DNA of 64,000 nt from Pyrococcus kukulkanii (lineage in GTDB: Archaea > Methanobacteriota_B > Thermococci > Thermococcales > Thermococcaceae), in the NCBI RefSeq assembly GCF_041647995.1, contig NZ_JARRIB010000003.1, forward strand, positions 1 to 64,000, given 5' to 3'. Positions 50,818 through 59,871 of this stretch are shown here, piece by piece. Every line of letters starts with the position of its first letter. Within the stretch, counting starts at the first letter, position 1. Position numbers and translations under genes: made by a program. The notes under the pieces are model-generated. The model saw only the letters and a list, made by a program, of their open reading frames with translations, did not search any database and was not told the DNA's origin.

Positions 50818-51642
50818 ATGCTCAAATGCTCAATCTGCATAAACGACGAGAGGGTAACGAGGATATTCATAATAGATGGAAAACCTATATGCAAAGAATG
50901 CAAGGCTTACCTTGAGCATCCGCCAAACAAAGAAAAGATAAGAAGAGAGCTGGAGGAGATAATGAAGAACGTTGACAGAGCAATCGTGGCATATTCTGGG
51001 GGCAAAGATTCAACGGTAGCATTGTACCTAGCAAAGGAGCACTACAAAATCTCAGAGCTCAAGGCCGTAATGGTTGATCACGGCTTCATAGCCAAGGAAG
51101 CCATCGAAAATGCCAGAAGAGTTGCAGAGTACCTGGGAGTGCCTTTTGAGGTTATAAAGAGGGACTATTCGGATATATTCAGGGATGCCCTGCTTAAGGC
51201 AAAGTCGCCTTGCAGAAAGTGCTCCAAAAGAACGATGGAAACCCTTCGAAAGTACGCCCTAAAGAATGGATACAAGTACATAATAACGGGGCACGAGATA
51301 CCCTTCGGCCATCACCCCTACATGCTCATGAGCGGGGGAGTTATTCAGGTAAGGCTACTCTCTCTAATGACGGAGGAAGAAAGGCTCAAGATTCTCAAAA
51401 ACCTGCCATTTAAGCTTCCAGAGCTTCCAGGGTACACGAGCAACTGTTTGATCCTGGGGCCAGCATTGGAGAAGTTCTGGGAGAAGCATGGTTATTCCTT
51501 CGAGCACAGGAGAATAGCTGCGCTAGTGAGATATGGCCTTTTGGATGAGGAGAAGGCCCTAAAGAAAGTGCAAAGGCCAGAGGTTCCAAAAGAACAAAAG
51601 GAATACGTGTACAAGAGACTAGGCCTCGAGCATCTCCTTTAG
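50818..51642 (+). CDS. PP-loop ATPase, TtuA-like
   Basis: 274 aa. An N-terminal zinc ribbon (C4, C7, C25, C28) precedes the PP-loop SGGKDS (60-65) and the Cys pair KSPCRKCSKR (~122-126), the same layout as TtuA/TilS-type tRNA modifiers. The stretch GHEIPFGHHPYMLMSGG is distinctive. It starts 9 bp after the radical SAM gene with SD GGGTGAT. Adenylation of a tRNA base or other substrate is the family's chemistry; the substrate here is unknown. It converges on alaX with 24 bp overlap. Confidence 0.75.
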   Translation: MLKCSICINDERVTRIFIIDGKPICKECKAYLEHPPNKEKIRRELEEIMKNVDRAIVAYSGGKDSTVALYLAKEHYKISELKAVMVDHGFIAKEAIENARRVAEYLGVPFEVIKRDYSDIFRDALLKAKSPCRKCSKRTMETLRKYALKNGYKYIITGHEIPFGHHPYMLMSGGVIQVRLLSLMTEEERLKILKNLPFKLPELPGYTSNCLILGPALEKFWEKHGYSFEHRRIAALVRYGLLDEEKALKKVQRPEVPKEQKEYVYKRLGLEHLL

Positions 51643-52833
51643 CTTTTCGAGGGCGACATCTATTACATCCTCAGGCTCTGCCTCTATTTTGCCCCTCGCT
51701 AAGTTGTCCGTTCCGCCACCTTTTCCACCAAGTTCCTCCATGACCTTCTTAAGCAATTCCTTCATTGAAACTGGAACCTCCTCGTTTCTCGCAAAGATTA
51801 CATAGTCATCACTTGCCAAGATAACTATCGTCCCAGGATTATTCTTAACGAAGTCCACCGCGAACGCCTGAGCATCCTTCATGTCCCAGCTCTCAACAAA
51901 TGTTACAACGTTATAGTGACCAACTTCCCAGCTCCTGCTAAGCAACGCCTGTTCCTTCCACTTCCAGAGCTCCCTCCTCTGAGCATTAAACTCATCTTCA
52001 AGCTTATCAATTGACTTAAGAACTTCTTTAACTCTCTCGGAAAGGGACGGGTTCTTATTTGGCATTAGGTCAAGGGCCTCCCAGTAATCTTTGAGGATCT
52101 CATTGAGCTTCTTTATTGCCCTCTCGCCCGCAACGAACTCAATCCTCCAGACACCTTTTGACTTCTTGTAGAAGCGGATAACCTTAAGGAAGCCAACTTC
52201 CCTAGTAGACTTAACGTGGGTTCCACCGCATGGGGTTACATCAATATCTCCTATCTTTACTATCCTTATCTTATCCTTGATCTTTGTCACGTGCTTCCTC
52301 AAAATTTTGGCGATGTCCTCAGGGAGATACTTGTATTCTTTAATAGTAACGAGCAGATCCTCCTGAATTATCTTGTTAGTTTCAAGTTCGGCTCTTTCTA
52401 TCATGTCCCAGGTGACCTCTCCATTCACCTCTATCTTCGCATAGTCCTCGAAAATGTGGAAGCCTGAAGTGTCAAGGCCATACAGCTTCTTTAGGACTGC
52501 AGAAAGTATGTGCTGGCCAGTATGGATCTTCATATTCTCGTATCTCCAGTGCCAGTCGAGGTCAAGCTTAACTCTATCCCCTTTTTTAGGTGTTGAACCC
52601 TTCAAAGTTCCAAGGTGCCATATCCCGTCCGGCTTCTCGACGGTGTTTTCTACCAAAACTTCAAACTCCTTACCCTTTATCTTTCCCCTATCCCCAGGTT
52701 GGCCACCGCCTTCTGGATAAAATATTGTCTTGTCAAGCCTTATTGCAACTCTATCCCCCTCAACCCTTACGTCTTCAACTATCGCCTCAGCCTCCCTCAG
52801 ATAGGGATCCTCATAATACAGCCTTTCCGTCAT
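51619..52833 (-). CDS. alaX: AlaX-L alanyl-tRNA editing protein
   Basis: A free-standing editing factor that removes serine (or glycine) from mischarged tRNA-Ala, working in trans with AlaRS. 404 aa, the long form. Zinc ligands H104 and H108 (HTGQH), and CGGTH near residue 200. [13 protein letters not shown] matches the AlaRS editing domain start, and the end has GGKGGGTDNLARG, the C-Ala-like glycine element. Starts with a 4-bp overlap of the chemoreceptor gene's stop. Confidence 0.93.
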   Translation of the reverse strand: MTERLYYEDPYLREAEAIVEDVRVEGDRVAIRLDKTIFYPEGGGQPGDRGKIKGKEFEVLVENTVEKPDGIWHLGTLKGSTPKKGDRVKLDLDWHWRYENMKIHTGQHILSAVLKKLYGLDTSGFHIFEDYAKIEVNGEVTWDMIERAELETNKIIQEDLLVTIKEYKYLPEDIAKILRKHVTKIKDKIRIVKIGDIDVTPCGGTHVKSTREVGFLKVIRFYKKSKGVWRIEFVAGERAIKKLNEILKDYWEALDLMPNKNPSLSERVKEVLKSIDKLEDEFNAQRRELWKWKEQALLSRSWEVGHYNVVTFVESWDMKDAQAFAVDFVKNNPGTIVILASDDYVIFARNEEVPVSMKELLKKVMEELGGKGGGTDNLARGKIEAEPEDVIDVALEKLKEMLEA

Positions 52834-53603
52834 AATATACCACCCTCTTCAAGTTGCTCCTTTGAATATTCACTAACCATTAACCTAAGAAGGGTAGCCA
52901 GTTCCTTATTGTATTTGTCCTGCATATCAGCGAACTTCCCCAATGCTAAAGCTATACCCTTGAGCCTTTTTATGTCATTTATAAACTGCTCCTGTTCCTT
53001 GGAAATTTCGCTTAGCACGTTGCTTATCTCAACTATAACCTCAATATCCCTCCCCAAGATTTCAGTCCCCTCTTTTATTCTGTCCATGACCTCCAAGGCA
53101 TCCCTCAATGCATCAAGCTGGGACATGACCCTCGAGTTAAAGTCCTTTATCTCTTTAGCTAAATTCATTGTCTGAACTGCCATCCTCCTAATTTCGTCGG
53201 CAACTACAGCAAAACCCCTTCCAGCCTCTCCAGCCCTCGCCGCCTCTATTGATGCATTTAAAGCAACAAGGTTAGTCTGCTTAGCAACGCTCGCAATGGA
53301 GTCGCTAATCTTAGAAACGTACTCAAGGTTCTGAACTAGGGTATTAAACTCTTTAGCAAACACTTCAAACCTTTGGAAGAATGGTAAGAATTCTTTCCTG
53401 AACTTATCCAGCTCAACCATCACTTGGGACAGCCTTTCAATGTTCTCAAGTATCATTGTATTGTTCTCCATGAACTTTCCGCTTATCTCCTCAGCGAGCT
53501 CTTCAACTATCTTGCTCGCTTCCTTGCTTGAAGTCTTTATCCTTAATGATTGAGCTAGAGCATTTGACGCCTTCTCTATGTTCTTAATGTTCATTAGTAT
53601 CAC
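52830..53603 (-). CDS. Soluble methyl-accepting chemotaxis-like protein
   Basis: 257 aa, nearly all coiled coil, with the hairpin tip that binds CheA/CheW in chemoreceptors: KQTNLVALNASIEAARAGEA then GRGFAVVADEIRRMA (~115-150). There is no membrane segment, no HAMP and no sensor domain, so it must receive its signal from a partner. The overlapping upstream gene encodes a diiron-type MBL protein, the likely sensor. No che genes are in the window. Confidence 0.85.
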   Translation of the reverse strand: MILMNIKNIEKASNALAQSLRIKTSSKEASKIVEELAEEISGKFMENNTMILENIERLSQVMVELDKFRKEFLPFFQRFEVFAKEFNTLVQNLEYVSKISDSIASVAKQTNLVALNASIEAARAGEAGRGFAVVADEIRRMAVQTMNLAKEIKDFNSRVMSQLDALRDALEVMDRIKEGTEILGRDIEVIVEISNVLSEISKEQEQFINDIKRLKGIALALGKFADMQDKYNKELATLLRLMVSEYSKEQLEEGGIL

Positions 53604-54367
53604 CTCATAAGATCAACACCAACCTTTAAGTTCTCTAACCAGTCAAAGAACTTCTTAACATGTCTCCTTGGGATTATGGCACCATGCTGGGGGAGAATTG
53701 CCTCTATATCGAGATACCTAACCTTATTTATCCAAATTTTCAGAGCCTTATTACTTGCCATGAGTCTTTCATGAAGGGGCTTCATGTATTGGACGTGCTT
53801 TTCAAAGTTTTCAACAACAAGGTAACCTTCCTTAGGAAATGCTATCCCGATGTCACCCGTGAATAGGAACTTACTTCTGTGGTCATAAATCGTGAAGTGT
53901 CCAGGGCTATGGAGGAAGTGAGCTGGGATGAATTCTAATGTTGTAGCTCCAAAATCCAGAGCCTCTCCCTCATCTTGTAACTCATGAGCATACCCCCCTA
54001 TACTTTCAAATCCGAAATGAGGTAAAAACCTCACCCACAACCAGTGAACTATGACCTTTGCATCGCTTATTTCTCTCCATAGGGGGATACTCCCAGCAAC
54101 GTCTGGATCCTGGTGGCACATGTAGATGTAATCAATGTTCCTTGGGTCTATGTACTTTGATATGTTAGCCAAAACTTTTGAAAAAATCTTGTACCCTCCA
54201 GGGTCTATTAAAATTCCCCTTCCCCTACTGACTATGAGGTAACTATTCACGTCAACGTCCTGGCCTCCTTCTTGGGTTCCCAAATAGATAACCATGTGCT
54301 CATCGTCCTTGTAAAGGACATGATCCTTTCTGGGATCCAAGTCCGGTGTGATAAAATACTCTCCCAC
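53600..54367 (-). CDS. MBL-fold diiron (ODP/flavodiiron-like) protein, candidate oxygen sensor
   Basis: 255 aa. Metallo-beta-lactamase fold with a flavodiiron-like ligand set: the usual HxExD is replaced by HQDPD (~83-87), then HSPGHF (~150), FTGDIG (~170) and LPQHGAI (~226). There is no flavodoxin domain, so it is not a standard flavodiiron reductase. Stand-alone proteins of this type (ODP) serve as oxygen/iron sensors for chemoreceptors in spirochetes. Here the gene overlaps the soluble receptor gene by 4 bp, strongly suggesting the same pairing. Confidence 0.8.
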   Translation of the reverse strand: MGEYFITPDLDPRKDHVLYKDDEHMVIYLGTQEGGQDVDVNSYLIVSRGRGILIDPGGYKIFSKVLANISKYIDPRNIDYIYMCHQDPDVAGSIPLWREISDAKVIVHWLWVRFLPHFGFESIGGYAHELQDEGEALDFGATTLEFIPAHFLHSPGHFTIYDHRSKFLFTGDIGIAFPKEGYLVVENFEKHVQYMKPLHERLMASNKALKIWINKVRYLDIEAILPQHGAIIPRRHVKKFFDWLENLKVGVDLMR

Positions 54368-54439: not shown

Positions 54440-55084
54440 CTATCTCTGGGATCTGGCCTCAATTAATGCCTTAACCCTCTTGAGCCTGAAGAAGTTCTCC
54501 CTTTCCATCTCGTCCAAGTGCTGCTCAATGAACTTTATCGTGTTCTTCATCCTCGGAATAATAATGTATTCGAGGGCATTAACTCTTCTCTTAGTCTTCT
54601 CTATTTCTTTTCCTAGTCTCTTAAGGGCCTCTTCAACCTCGGCTAACCTTACGGCGAGCTCGAGAACTTCCTCAAACTTTTCCGCTGCAACATCTACCGT
54701 GGAGGTCGTCGCTATAAACGAATAACCCCTTTCTCCAGTCTTCCTCTTCATTTCGGGTACCTCAATAAGGGGAACCCTAACACCCATTATGTTCCTCGTT
54801 CTCACTTTGATCTCCTTGTTTGAATTGACTCCTATAGCAATCTCCTTGAGCCTTAATGAACCAACGTCAATCTGAGCCTTCCTTAGAGCCTCAAAAGCTT
54901 CTTCCATCTTCTGGATAAGCTCCTTTCTGAGATTCAGGGCCTCGTCATATATCGTAAAGAACTCCATTATGAGTGCATCCTGCTTCTCCTTGAGTAACTT
55001 ATGGCCCCTCTCAGCTAGCTTAACCCTTCTCTTGAGCTTGAGTAACTCCATTCTTGTTGGTTTGACCTTAAGGATCTCTGGCAT
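54440..55084 (-). CDS. atpD: A-type ATP synthase subunit D
   Basis: Central rotor stalk. 214 aa, two long coiled-coil helices ([20 protein letters not shown] and the C-terminal [19 protein letters not shown]) around a short middle domain. Last gene of the operon, 22 bp after atpB, followed by a T-rich region. Confidence 0.93.
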
Positions 55085-56500: not shown

Positions 56501-59500
56501 TCACTCCCCATACTTCTTGAAGAGCTCCTCAAACTGCTCATTGGTCTTATCAATTAGGGCCTTAATCTTCTCAACATCACGCTCAAACTTCATTCTACCG
56601 ATCTCTTCCCTGACTGGCAACTTTGCTATCTCCTCAAGTGGGACTCCCCTGCTTATTGCCTCCATCGTCTTCTCGTAGAAGTTGAGGAGAACCCTCATCA
56701 TCGTTACCTGCTTCTGGGGTGGACAGTAGGTATCGACTTCATCGAAGGCGTCCTGCTGCAGGTAGTCCTCTCTGAGCATCCTTGCAACTAGCAGGATAGC
56801 CCTCTCCCTCTCTGGAAGGGCATCAGGACCCACAATTCTAACGATCTCCTGTAGCTCAGCTTCCTTCTGCAGTAGCTCCATTGCCTTGTCCCTCATCTTC
56901 CTCCACTCTGGGTCAACGTTCTTATGCCACCAGCCCTGAATTGCATCTACGTAAAGGGAGTAGCTTGTCAGCCAGTTAATAGCTGGGAAGTGTCTTCTTC
57001 TTGCTAGGTCCGCATCAAGGGCCCAGAAGACCTTCACAACTCTCAGGGTGTTCTGAACTACGGGCTCGGAGAAGTCACCGCCCGGAGGCGAAACTGCTCC
57101 AATTACACTAACGCTACCCACCCTATAGTCGCTACCCAGGGTTACAACTCTCCCCGCTCTCTCATAGAATTCAGCGAGCTTTGAAGCAAGGTACGCAGGA
57201 TAACCTTCCTCACCAGGCATTTCCTCAAGTCTTCCTGAAATCTCTCTCAACGCCTCAGCCCATCTTGACGTTGAATCTGCCATCAAAGCAACGTCATAAC
57301 CCATATCTCTAAAGTACTCAGCAATTGTAATTCCAGTGTAAATTGAGGCCTCTCTCGCTGCGACAGGCATGTTGGAGGTGTTTGCAATTAAAACTGTTCT
57401 CTCCATAAGTGGCTTGCCCGTGTTGGGGTCTTTAAGCTTTGGAAACTCCTCGAGAACATCGGTCATCTCATTTCCTCTCTCACCGCATCCAATGTAAACT
57501 ACTACCTGGGCATCGCTCCATTTCGCCAATTGGTGCTGGGTGACCGTGTTATGGAGTAAAGTTGGCATATTGCCCCCAACGAAATTGTGGGTCTCAGTCG
57601 TTACATCGTAAACTTCCTGGGGCTCATCTATGTACCTTATCTCAACGATCTCATCGAAGAGAACGTGGCTAAGGTGGTTCTCGGCTATTTCCTCCATGCC
57701 AATGAACTTCGCAAACTTTCTGAAGGTCTCATAGCTCATGTTTTCTCCTGAAAGGTAGTTGTGTATCTCTATCCCAGCTTTCTTGAGCCTGGCGTACGGC
57801 CTTCCAATGACCTCGTAGAGATCCTCAACGTCCACTGGAACAACGTCAATGCTTGTGTATCCCCTGCCTTCCCTCTCAACTCCAAGCTTCTCAAGGTTTG
57901 CTTTACCGCTTATAATTACCCTATAGTACTTCCTGCCACTCACTTCTTTCTCCCTTATTATAGCATATATACCGAGCTTGGCAAGTAGATAGCTTAGGCC
58001 GTAAGCGGCTTCCTCTGAGGCAGTTGCTATCTCTATCTCACCCTTCTTCTCGTTGTAGTGGCCGTCACAAGCTATGTAGGCCTTAATGAATGCCTCCACA
58101 ACGCTTGGCTTGCTCATGAGAAGCTCCTTAGGAACTTTCCAGTTCCTCGCTTTCTTAGCCCCAGGAACTCCCAAAGCCTTGAAGAATTCCACTAAGGCCT
58201 TGCTGTGTATCAGGAGTGCCTTTACAGTTCTATCCTGCACTATCTTCCCTTCAACACCAAAGAGCTCCCTAGCGAGATCATTGGCCCTCTTAAGGAGAGC
58301 CTCATCGTTGTTGTATATAGCGACTGTCCTAAGCTTAAGGGTTCCGTCGGCAAGTAGATAGCCCAGGAACTCTGCTAGTTTCTCATCGAGAACTTCCGGT
58401 ATTCTAACTTTCTTCGGAGATCTAACGTTGACCTCGACATTGAGCCTAACGTCTTCTCCGCCATCTATCTTCTTTGCAACCAAAATTCTGTCTCCCTTCT
58501 TTAGGTGCATTGCCATTACTTCCTCTATAACTAGCCCATCTTTTGTTACCCTGCCAGTGAATAGCTTGTGTATCGGGGTGACCTTTATCTTTCTACCTGT
58601 CCTGGTCTTTATCTCAACCATTCCCTGGGAGTAGCCCTTGTACACGTGCGTTGCCTTTATCTCAACGATCTTTCCATCCTTGTATCCATAGAGCGTTATT
58701 GGTTCATCTAGCTCAGTCCACTCCTCTCCTTCCTTGACTGTCTTCTTGCCCTTATCCTCAAGCTTCTCATAGAGCTCCCTGATCTTTATTAGACCGAACT
58801 CCTTCGTTAAGACTAGCGTATCGCCATCCACACACTTTCCGCTTCCGAAGGGTCCTGGAATAGCTGCAGTTCCTCCCTTGGCCTGTGGGAAGAACGTATC
58901 AATAACTCTCTGCCCTGTAATGAGCGGAATTTCTGGTGGGAGCTTCTCCTTATATGGTCTCTTCACTCTGACTGGCCACCTCTGATACATCTTTAATTCC
59001 TTGATCTCTCCGCTTGGAGTCTTAACCTTTGCAATGACATCTTCAATAGTATATTCTCCTTCATCGGCGATCTCAACTATCTCTCCTTCTATCCCTGGGG
59101 GCACCATTATCTTGTGAACAATAATGCTGGTCTCGGGCACTTCACCGATAATATCTCCTCCAACGACCTTGTCTCCAACTTTAACCTTTGGAGTGAAGTG
59201 CCACTTCTTGTCCCTGGGGAGGGCAGGAGCTGTAATACCTCTAGCTATGAAGTCGCCACTCTTCTCCCTAAGGATTTCAAGAGGCCTTTGAATACCATCG
59301 TATATTGAGGTTAAAAGCCCAGGACCGAGTTCAACACTTAACGATGCTCCAGTTCCAACGACGGGCTCGCCAGGTCTAACTCCAGCCGTTTCCTCGTAAA
59401 CCTGAATCACCGCCTTGTCTCCCTCAAGTCTAATGATTTCTCCTATGAGACCAAGCTCACCGACTCTAACGACCTCATACATCTTTGCTCCTTTCATCCC

Positions 59501-59554
59501 ATCGGCAACTACGAGAGGACCTGTAACCCTAATTATCCTCCCTTTGGCTGGCAT
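56501..59554 (-). CDS. atpA: A-type ATP synthase catalytic subunit A, intein-containing
   Basis: Catalytic ATPase subunit. ATG 59554 ([30 protein letters not shown]) gives a 1017-aa precursor. A 429-aa intein interrupts the P-loop GPFGSGK/T exactly after the lysine; removing it leaves 588 aa, the normal length. Downstream motifs include [36 protein letters not shown] and [18 protein letters not shown]. The protein cannot work unless spliced, since the phosphate-binding Lys and Thr are apart. Confidence 0.96.
57548..58834 (-). mobile_element. VMA-type intein with LAGLIDADG homing endonuclease
   Basis: 429 residues starting with Cys (CVDGDTLVL, block A) and ending HN ([15 protein letters not shown]) before extein Thr. 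The block B region has KVTPIHKLF. Two LAGLIDADG helices are [13 protein letters not shown] and [12 protein letters not shown], both keeping the acidic residue, so the endonuclease may be active. The insertion point in the ATPase P-loop is the common VMA site of Thermococcales. From memory its length matches the larger Pyrococcus VMA inteins. Confidence 0.95.
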
Positions 59555-59559
59555 TTCCT

Positions 59560-59871
59560 TCACCTCTTTATCTCAACCCCTATCGCCCTTCTAACTATCT
59601 CCTTTAACAGTTCTTCCCCATAAATGGAACCAAACTTATCTGGGATTTGAAGTATGATTGGAAGGTTAACTTCAGGCAATTCACCTATCTTTTCAGCGAG
59701 TCTTTCAGTGATGAGTATAACCCCAATATCATCCCTCTCGACGAGTTCCTTCAGCTTATTTCTAGCTCTCTCAATCGATAAGTCCGAGAGGTCAAACTCA
59801 TAAGCTTCATGAACCCCCGCAAGCTTGAATCCCACTACGGTGTCTTCATCTCCCATTACTACTATCTTCAT
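59560..59871 (-). CDS. atpF: A-type ATP synthase subunit F
   Basis: Small central-stalk subunit, 103 aa, with [19 protein letters not shown] and the conserved ITERLAEKI. Overlaps the atpC stop by 4 bp (ATGA). Its end lies 5 bp from the atpA start. Confidence 0.93.

Follow-up and report, generated by a model that had tools for sequence, protein, structure and literature searches.

A candidate oxygen- and iron-sensing pair of a di-iron protein and a sensorless chemoreceptor in Thermococcaceae

We analysed a 64,000-nucleotide stretch of DNA (the window) from the genome of a thermophilic, anaerobic archaeon of the Thermococcaceae; this genome of 2.05 Mb is assembled in 9 contigs and is 99.8% complete. 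Two genes on the minus strand sit between a V/A-type ATPase subunit D gene and alaX. The first (53600..54367, GTG start) encodes a 255-residue MBL-fold protein of the oxygen-binding di-iron protein (ODP) family, and the second (52830..53603, GTG start) encodes its cognate MCP-type receptor, a soluble, sensorless protein of 257 residues. The stop of the ODP gene and the start of the receptor gene share 4 bp (53600..53603). The receptor gene in turn overlaps by 4 bp (52830..52833) the minus-strand gene of an AlaX-type alanyl-tRNA editing protein (51619..52833), whose match to the NCBIfam AlaXM model (E 1e-54) lies under the curated cut-off. Both overlaps had been reported in a first-pass annotation of the window and are real; that between the ODP and receptor genes would be expected to couple their translation. 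The upstream border of the site is a minus-strand frame at 54440..55084, whose probable identity as ATPase subunit D was assigned from its sequence and its position in the ATPase operon. The ATPase A-subunit frame in the window (56501-59563) encodes 1020 residues, compared with 591 in the relative at locus L042, and the inserted sequence has an intein-like reading.

The protein encoded at 53600-54367 is confirmed as a true ODP by profile, ligands and fold. It matched PF19583 (ODP) in Pfam with an E-value of 4.8e-72 and 242.4 bits, against a cut-off of 27.2, and its sequence matched the ODPs 6qnm and 6qrq in the PDB (E 2.5e-63 and 2.1e-61). The AlphaFold model (pLDDT 94) is a single domain, for which Foldseek gave 6qwo as the best match (TM 0.90, E 1.8e-31). 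TM-scores of the model were about 0.9 against the solved ODPs of T. maritima and T. denticola and about 0.7 against flavodiiron proteins. The bacterial T. maritima ODP (6qrq, 6qwo), the best structural match, is about 42% identical to the window ODP and differs from it in having N where the window protein has H157.

Four motifs are present in the window ODP: HQDPD (H85-D89), HSPGH (H153-H157), GD (G171-D172) and QHG (Q227-G229). The predicted metal ligands are H85, D87, D89, H153, D172 and H228, and these residues, together with Q227, are invariant or almost so among 155 aligned ODPs. Q227 corresponds to the glutamine that precedes the last ligand histidine, a replacement described as specific to ODPs (PMC7785958). 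No flavodoxin domain was detected by Pfam in the 255 residues. The ODP-like ligand set without flavodoxin proposed from the first reading was therefore borne out by the PF19583 match, the ligands and the single MBL domain. One of its ligand motifs held in part: HSPGH is present and H153 is a predicted ligand, but H157 is replaced by N or Q in other ODPs of the 155-sequence alignment and is therefore not a conserved ligand. The hydrolase motif HxHxDH is absent from the window ODP, which has HQDPDV at this place, and the ligands follow the ODP-type pattern HxDxDV ... Q-H and not that of a hydrolase. Membership of the MBL hydrolases was ruled out by the ligand set and domains, and membership of the flavodiiron proteins by ligands and domains, there being no MBL-flavodoxin fusion.

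The partner protein matched PF00015 (MCP signalling domain, E 3.2e-28). This was the one domain given by Pfam, and no sensor or membrane domain was found in the 257 residues. The receptor was modelled as one antiparallel hairpin of two helices (residues 6-123 and 125-254; pLDDT 75), and this model was used for topology alone because its pTM was low (0.42). The domain search and the hairpin agree with the earlier description of an MCP-type protein without a sensor domain. The receptor tip (...VAKQTNLVALNASIEAARAGEAGRGFAVVADEIR...) is invariant in thermococcal orthologues, and as judged from these residues the CheA/CheW-binding tip is intact. No match to the methylation-site motif was found in the receptor sequence, nor a CheR-tether pentapeptide at its C-terminus. 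As the receptor has no clear methylation motif, adaptation would have to come from another source. Alignment to the genome's other MCPs left gaps too uncertain for a receptor length class to be used.

We compared the arrangement of these genes across 94 Thermococcaceae genomes, in which two ODP subtypes occur: the window type and a second, ODP-A. Pairing with a receptor is obligate for the window type, as a receptor gene adjoined the ODP gene in 30 of 30 fetched Thermococcaceae loci (one receptor being truncated), compared with 0 of 31 for ODP-A. The chance that a given gene adjoins one of the genome's 5 MCPs is small (p about 0.005). Therefore, the adjacency of ODP and receptor is not due to chance. 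In a wider scan of named genomes, which repeats a few of the same Thermococcaceae genomes, the receptor lay immediately downstream of the ODP in 48 of 80 loci, distributed among Spirochaetota, Aquificota, Thermotogota, Thermodesulfobacteriota, Methylomirabilota, Campylobacterota and archaeal records. In most relatives the two genes either overlap by 4 bp or lie no more than about 10 bp apart. In the ODP tree, a supported clade unites the window-type ODPs with the ODP of one Aquificota MAG.

Distances between ODPs and between their receptors were strongly correlated: Mantel r was 0.90 overall (0 of 2000 permutations), 0.67 for the wider set and 0.91 for the thermococcal set. This correlation in part reflects shared species history. 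For both genes, comparison with the closest relatives gave dN/dS values of about 0.01-0.03 (dS was close to saturation in most of these comparisons), which indicate that both are under strong purifying selection in the window lineage. When residues of receptor-paired and unpaired ODPs were compared, position 72 was the sole standout, with Tyr in 73 of 78 paired and 25 of 76 unpaired proteins; as this position alone stood out, no interface is named from ODP residues. In two genomes (G027 and G069), an extra soluble MCP lies immediately upstream of the ODP (L053:5701-6942 and L068:5701-6930). Its N-terminal domain of about 120 residues contains the motif HFGRVHYRP or HFGKVHYRP and had no Pfam or PDB match.

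A single cluster on a different contig of the source genome holds cheA, cheW, cheB, cheR, cheC, cheD and the archaeal adaptor gene cheF, so that both cheA and cheW are present within a full che set in a genome whose receptor keeps its CheA/CheW-binding tip. Its 5 MCPs are the cognate receptor and four others. Among the 94 Thermococcaceae genomes, with che presence scored by canonical CheW, 28 had both the pair and che, 59 had neither and 7 were mismatched (Fisher p 2e-16). Phylogenetic contrasts gave a similar result, with about 9 of 11 independent contrasts concordant and 0 discordant (median p 0.004); these were drawn on a tree of one marker gene, atpB, which is next to the locus, for 75 genomes with a completeness of at least 90%. 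No association between ODP-A and che was found by contrasts on the same tree. The pair has thus been gained and lost jointly with the che genes across Thermococcaceae, and this repeated joint gain and loss is evidence, apart from bacterial experiments, that the pair acts via chemotaxis.

The link between the pair and che is not absolute, because five genomes at least 90% complete are mismatched: G002, G065 and G077 have che and lack the pair, and in G049 and G069 the pair is present and CheW was undetected. In the complete genome G069, which had no CheW-domain match, the receptor start and approximately the first hundred codons are deleted and the ODP is intact. Loss of this part of the receptor in a genome without CheA is what would be expected if the receptor is useless without CheA. 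The receptor remnant in G069 lies at L068:4457-4957, and the deletion occurred at a short GATAGC repeat.

The first-pass annotation had suggested alaX as an odd third partner of the pair. Within Thermococcaceae, alaX almost always follows the receptor gene. In 15 of the 16 pair-less genomes examined, alaX directly adjoins the ATPase D gene, leaving an empty site, and alaX was not seen at the closest pairs outside Thermococcaceae (L077-L079). As it adjoins the ATPase D gene in genomes without the pair as well, alaX is a neighbour and not a partner. These observations rule out the suggestion of a third partner; alaX is next to the receptor by chance.

An ODP-receptor system was reportedly already known from the work of Muok et al. 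in 2019. In T. denticola, the ODP TDE2498 senses oxygen and is coupled genetically to TDE2496, a sensorless receptor capable of CheA modulation; deletion of this ODP alters CheA order in arrays (PMC7666581). Direct contact between ODP and receptor has also been reported (PMC6978683), and signalling pathways of bacteria and archaea, chemotaxis among them, have taken up ODPs, whose genes share operons with those of MCPs (PMC7319448). The spirochete precedent cited in the first-pass annotation, of an ODP feeding a soluble receptor, agrees with TDE2498 and TDE2496. The idea of a sensor pair is right, and it is already known in kind given the T. denticola system (PMC7666581) and the archaeal operons (PMC7319448). 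The window ODP belongs to the same family as TDE2498, with about 45% identity and the same ligands, and both have a genetically coupled sensorless receptor. The window pair differs in that its host is archaeal, with CheF and an archaellum instead of a flagellum, and in that its genes overlap by 4 bp. A literature search of incomplete coverage returned no account of how the pair is distributed in Thermococcaceae, of its gain and loss along with che, of the receptor in decay, of the vacant site or of the ODP-A operon; nothing on point was found for oxygen-response transcriptomics naming this receptor.

ODP membership, the receptor tip and the che set all support the earlier interpretation of the two proteins as a sensor and its receptor, apart from the role given to alaX. 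As a general mechanism, we consider it quite likely that the ODP and receptor are an O2/iron sensor pair feeding chemotaxis, that is, a split aerotaxis or iron-taxis receptor. Metal and O2 binding, ODP-receptor contact, the effect on CheA and the behaviour are carried over from bacterial ODP work. By this analogy, the ODP would bind two irons in the cytoplasm, and O2 at the di-ferrous site, or altered iron loading, would change its conformation. The ODP would dock on the sensorless receptor, which, as part of a chemoreceptor array, would change CheA activity; phospho-CheY would then act via CheF on the archaellum. In this way the anaerobe might find its direction in gradients of O2 and Fe(II), probably so as to avoid O2. 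The pair is a concrete, testable candidate for O2 sensing and avoidance in strictly anaerobic vent archaea, and che-bearing relatives that are open to genetic manipulation would permit testing.

It is possible, if rather doubtful, that the pair is primarily a sensor of Fe(II) (or of general redox state or NO) and not of O2, the signal at vents being the iron loading of the ODP. Gradients of Fe(II) at vents are steep, and an identical ligand set would serve either signal. The title under which the T. denticola study is cited (PMC7785958, PMC7319448) likewise names Fe(II) and O2. Against this, the MBL di-iron family reacts with O2 and NO, and an ODP has been solved in a peroxo state (6r9n).

Two other explanations appear very improbable. 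If the ODP were an O2- or NO-reducing detoxification enzyme, the receptor gene would be a mere neighbour. Di-iron MBL proteins are frequently reductases, and the ODP is distantly homologous to the flavodiiron proteins (ROO, FprA, flavorubredoxin), with which it has an MBL-fold di-iron core and the positions of H85, D89, H153, D172 and H228 in common. The window ODP, however, lacks their flavodoxin, has D87 in place of E and V90 in place of the second H, and has Q227 in place of G; a separate full-length flavodiiron-like protein is encoded in the source genome, and obligate pairing with a receptor and loss together with che would be unexpected for a detoxification enzyme. With equally little probability, the receptor has a role other than chemotaxis, or the pair is a remnant in decay. 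The pair is absent from more than half of Thermococcaceae and the G069 receptor is truncated, but the strong purifying selection estimated for both genes in the window lineage and the full che set of the genome argue otherwise. A zinc hydrolase is scarcely credible, as the shared superfamily and a Lactamase_B profile match (E 6e-23) are set against the far better fit of PF19583, the missing HxHxDH and the presence of H85-Q-D-P-D89 in all 155 relatives.

Alongside the proposed sensor-receptor pair, archaea have the second ODP branch. ODP-A is about 44% identical to the window ODP and has the same ligands; in contrast to the window type, it never adjoins a receptor, follows an unannotated protein and is che-independent. 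Its hosts are Thermococcaceae and Desulfurococcales-type archaea, many of them without che. In 38 loci, the gene that comes before ODP-A, on the same strand, encodes a member of a protein family mostly of 250-268 residues (for example, L043:4106-4900 and L111:3203-3955). This partner protein had no Pfam, NCBIfam or PDB match, and a weak match to Polyketide_cyc2 (E 0.07) was SRPBCC-like. We tentatively suggest, at somewhat less than even confidence, that archaeal ODPs split into two sensors, one receptor-coupled and used by strictly anaerobic hyperthermophiles for O2 avoidance or iron following, the other che-independent with an undescribed partner, as a general O2/iron module that swaps outputs. 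If this is true, O2/iron sensing by di-iron MBL proteins would be a general archaeal module whose output partners are exchanged.

Some bacterial loci place ODPs with what appear from their gene content to be other signalling outputs. In Sulfurimonas, ODPs are flanked by a response-regulator protein on one side and a CBS-PAS-GGDEF-EAL protein on the other (L118:2509-8412), and tandem ODPs in Oceanospirillum lie upstream of an HD-domain protein (L092:3980-6827).
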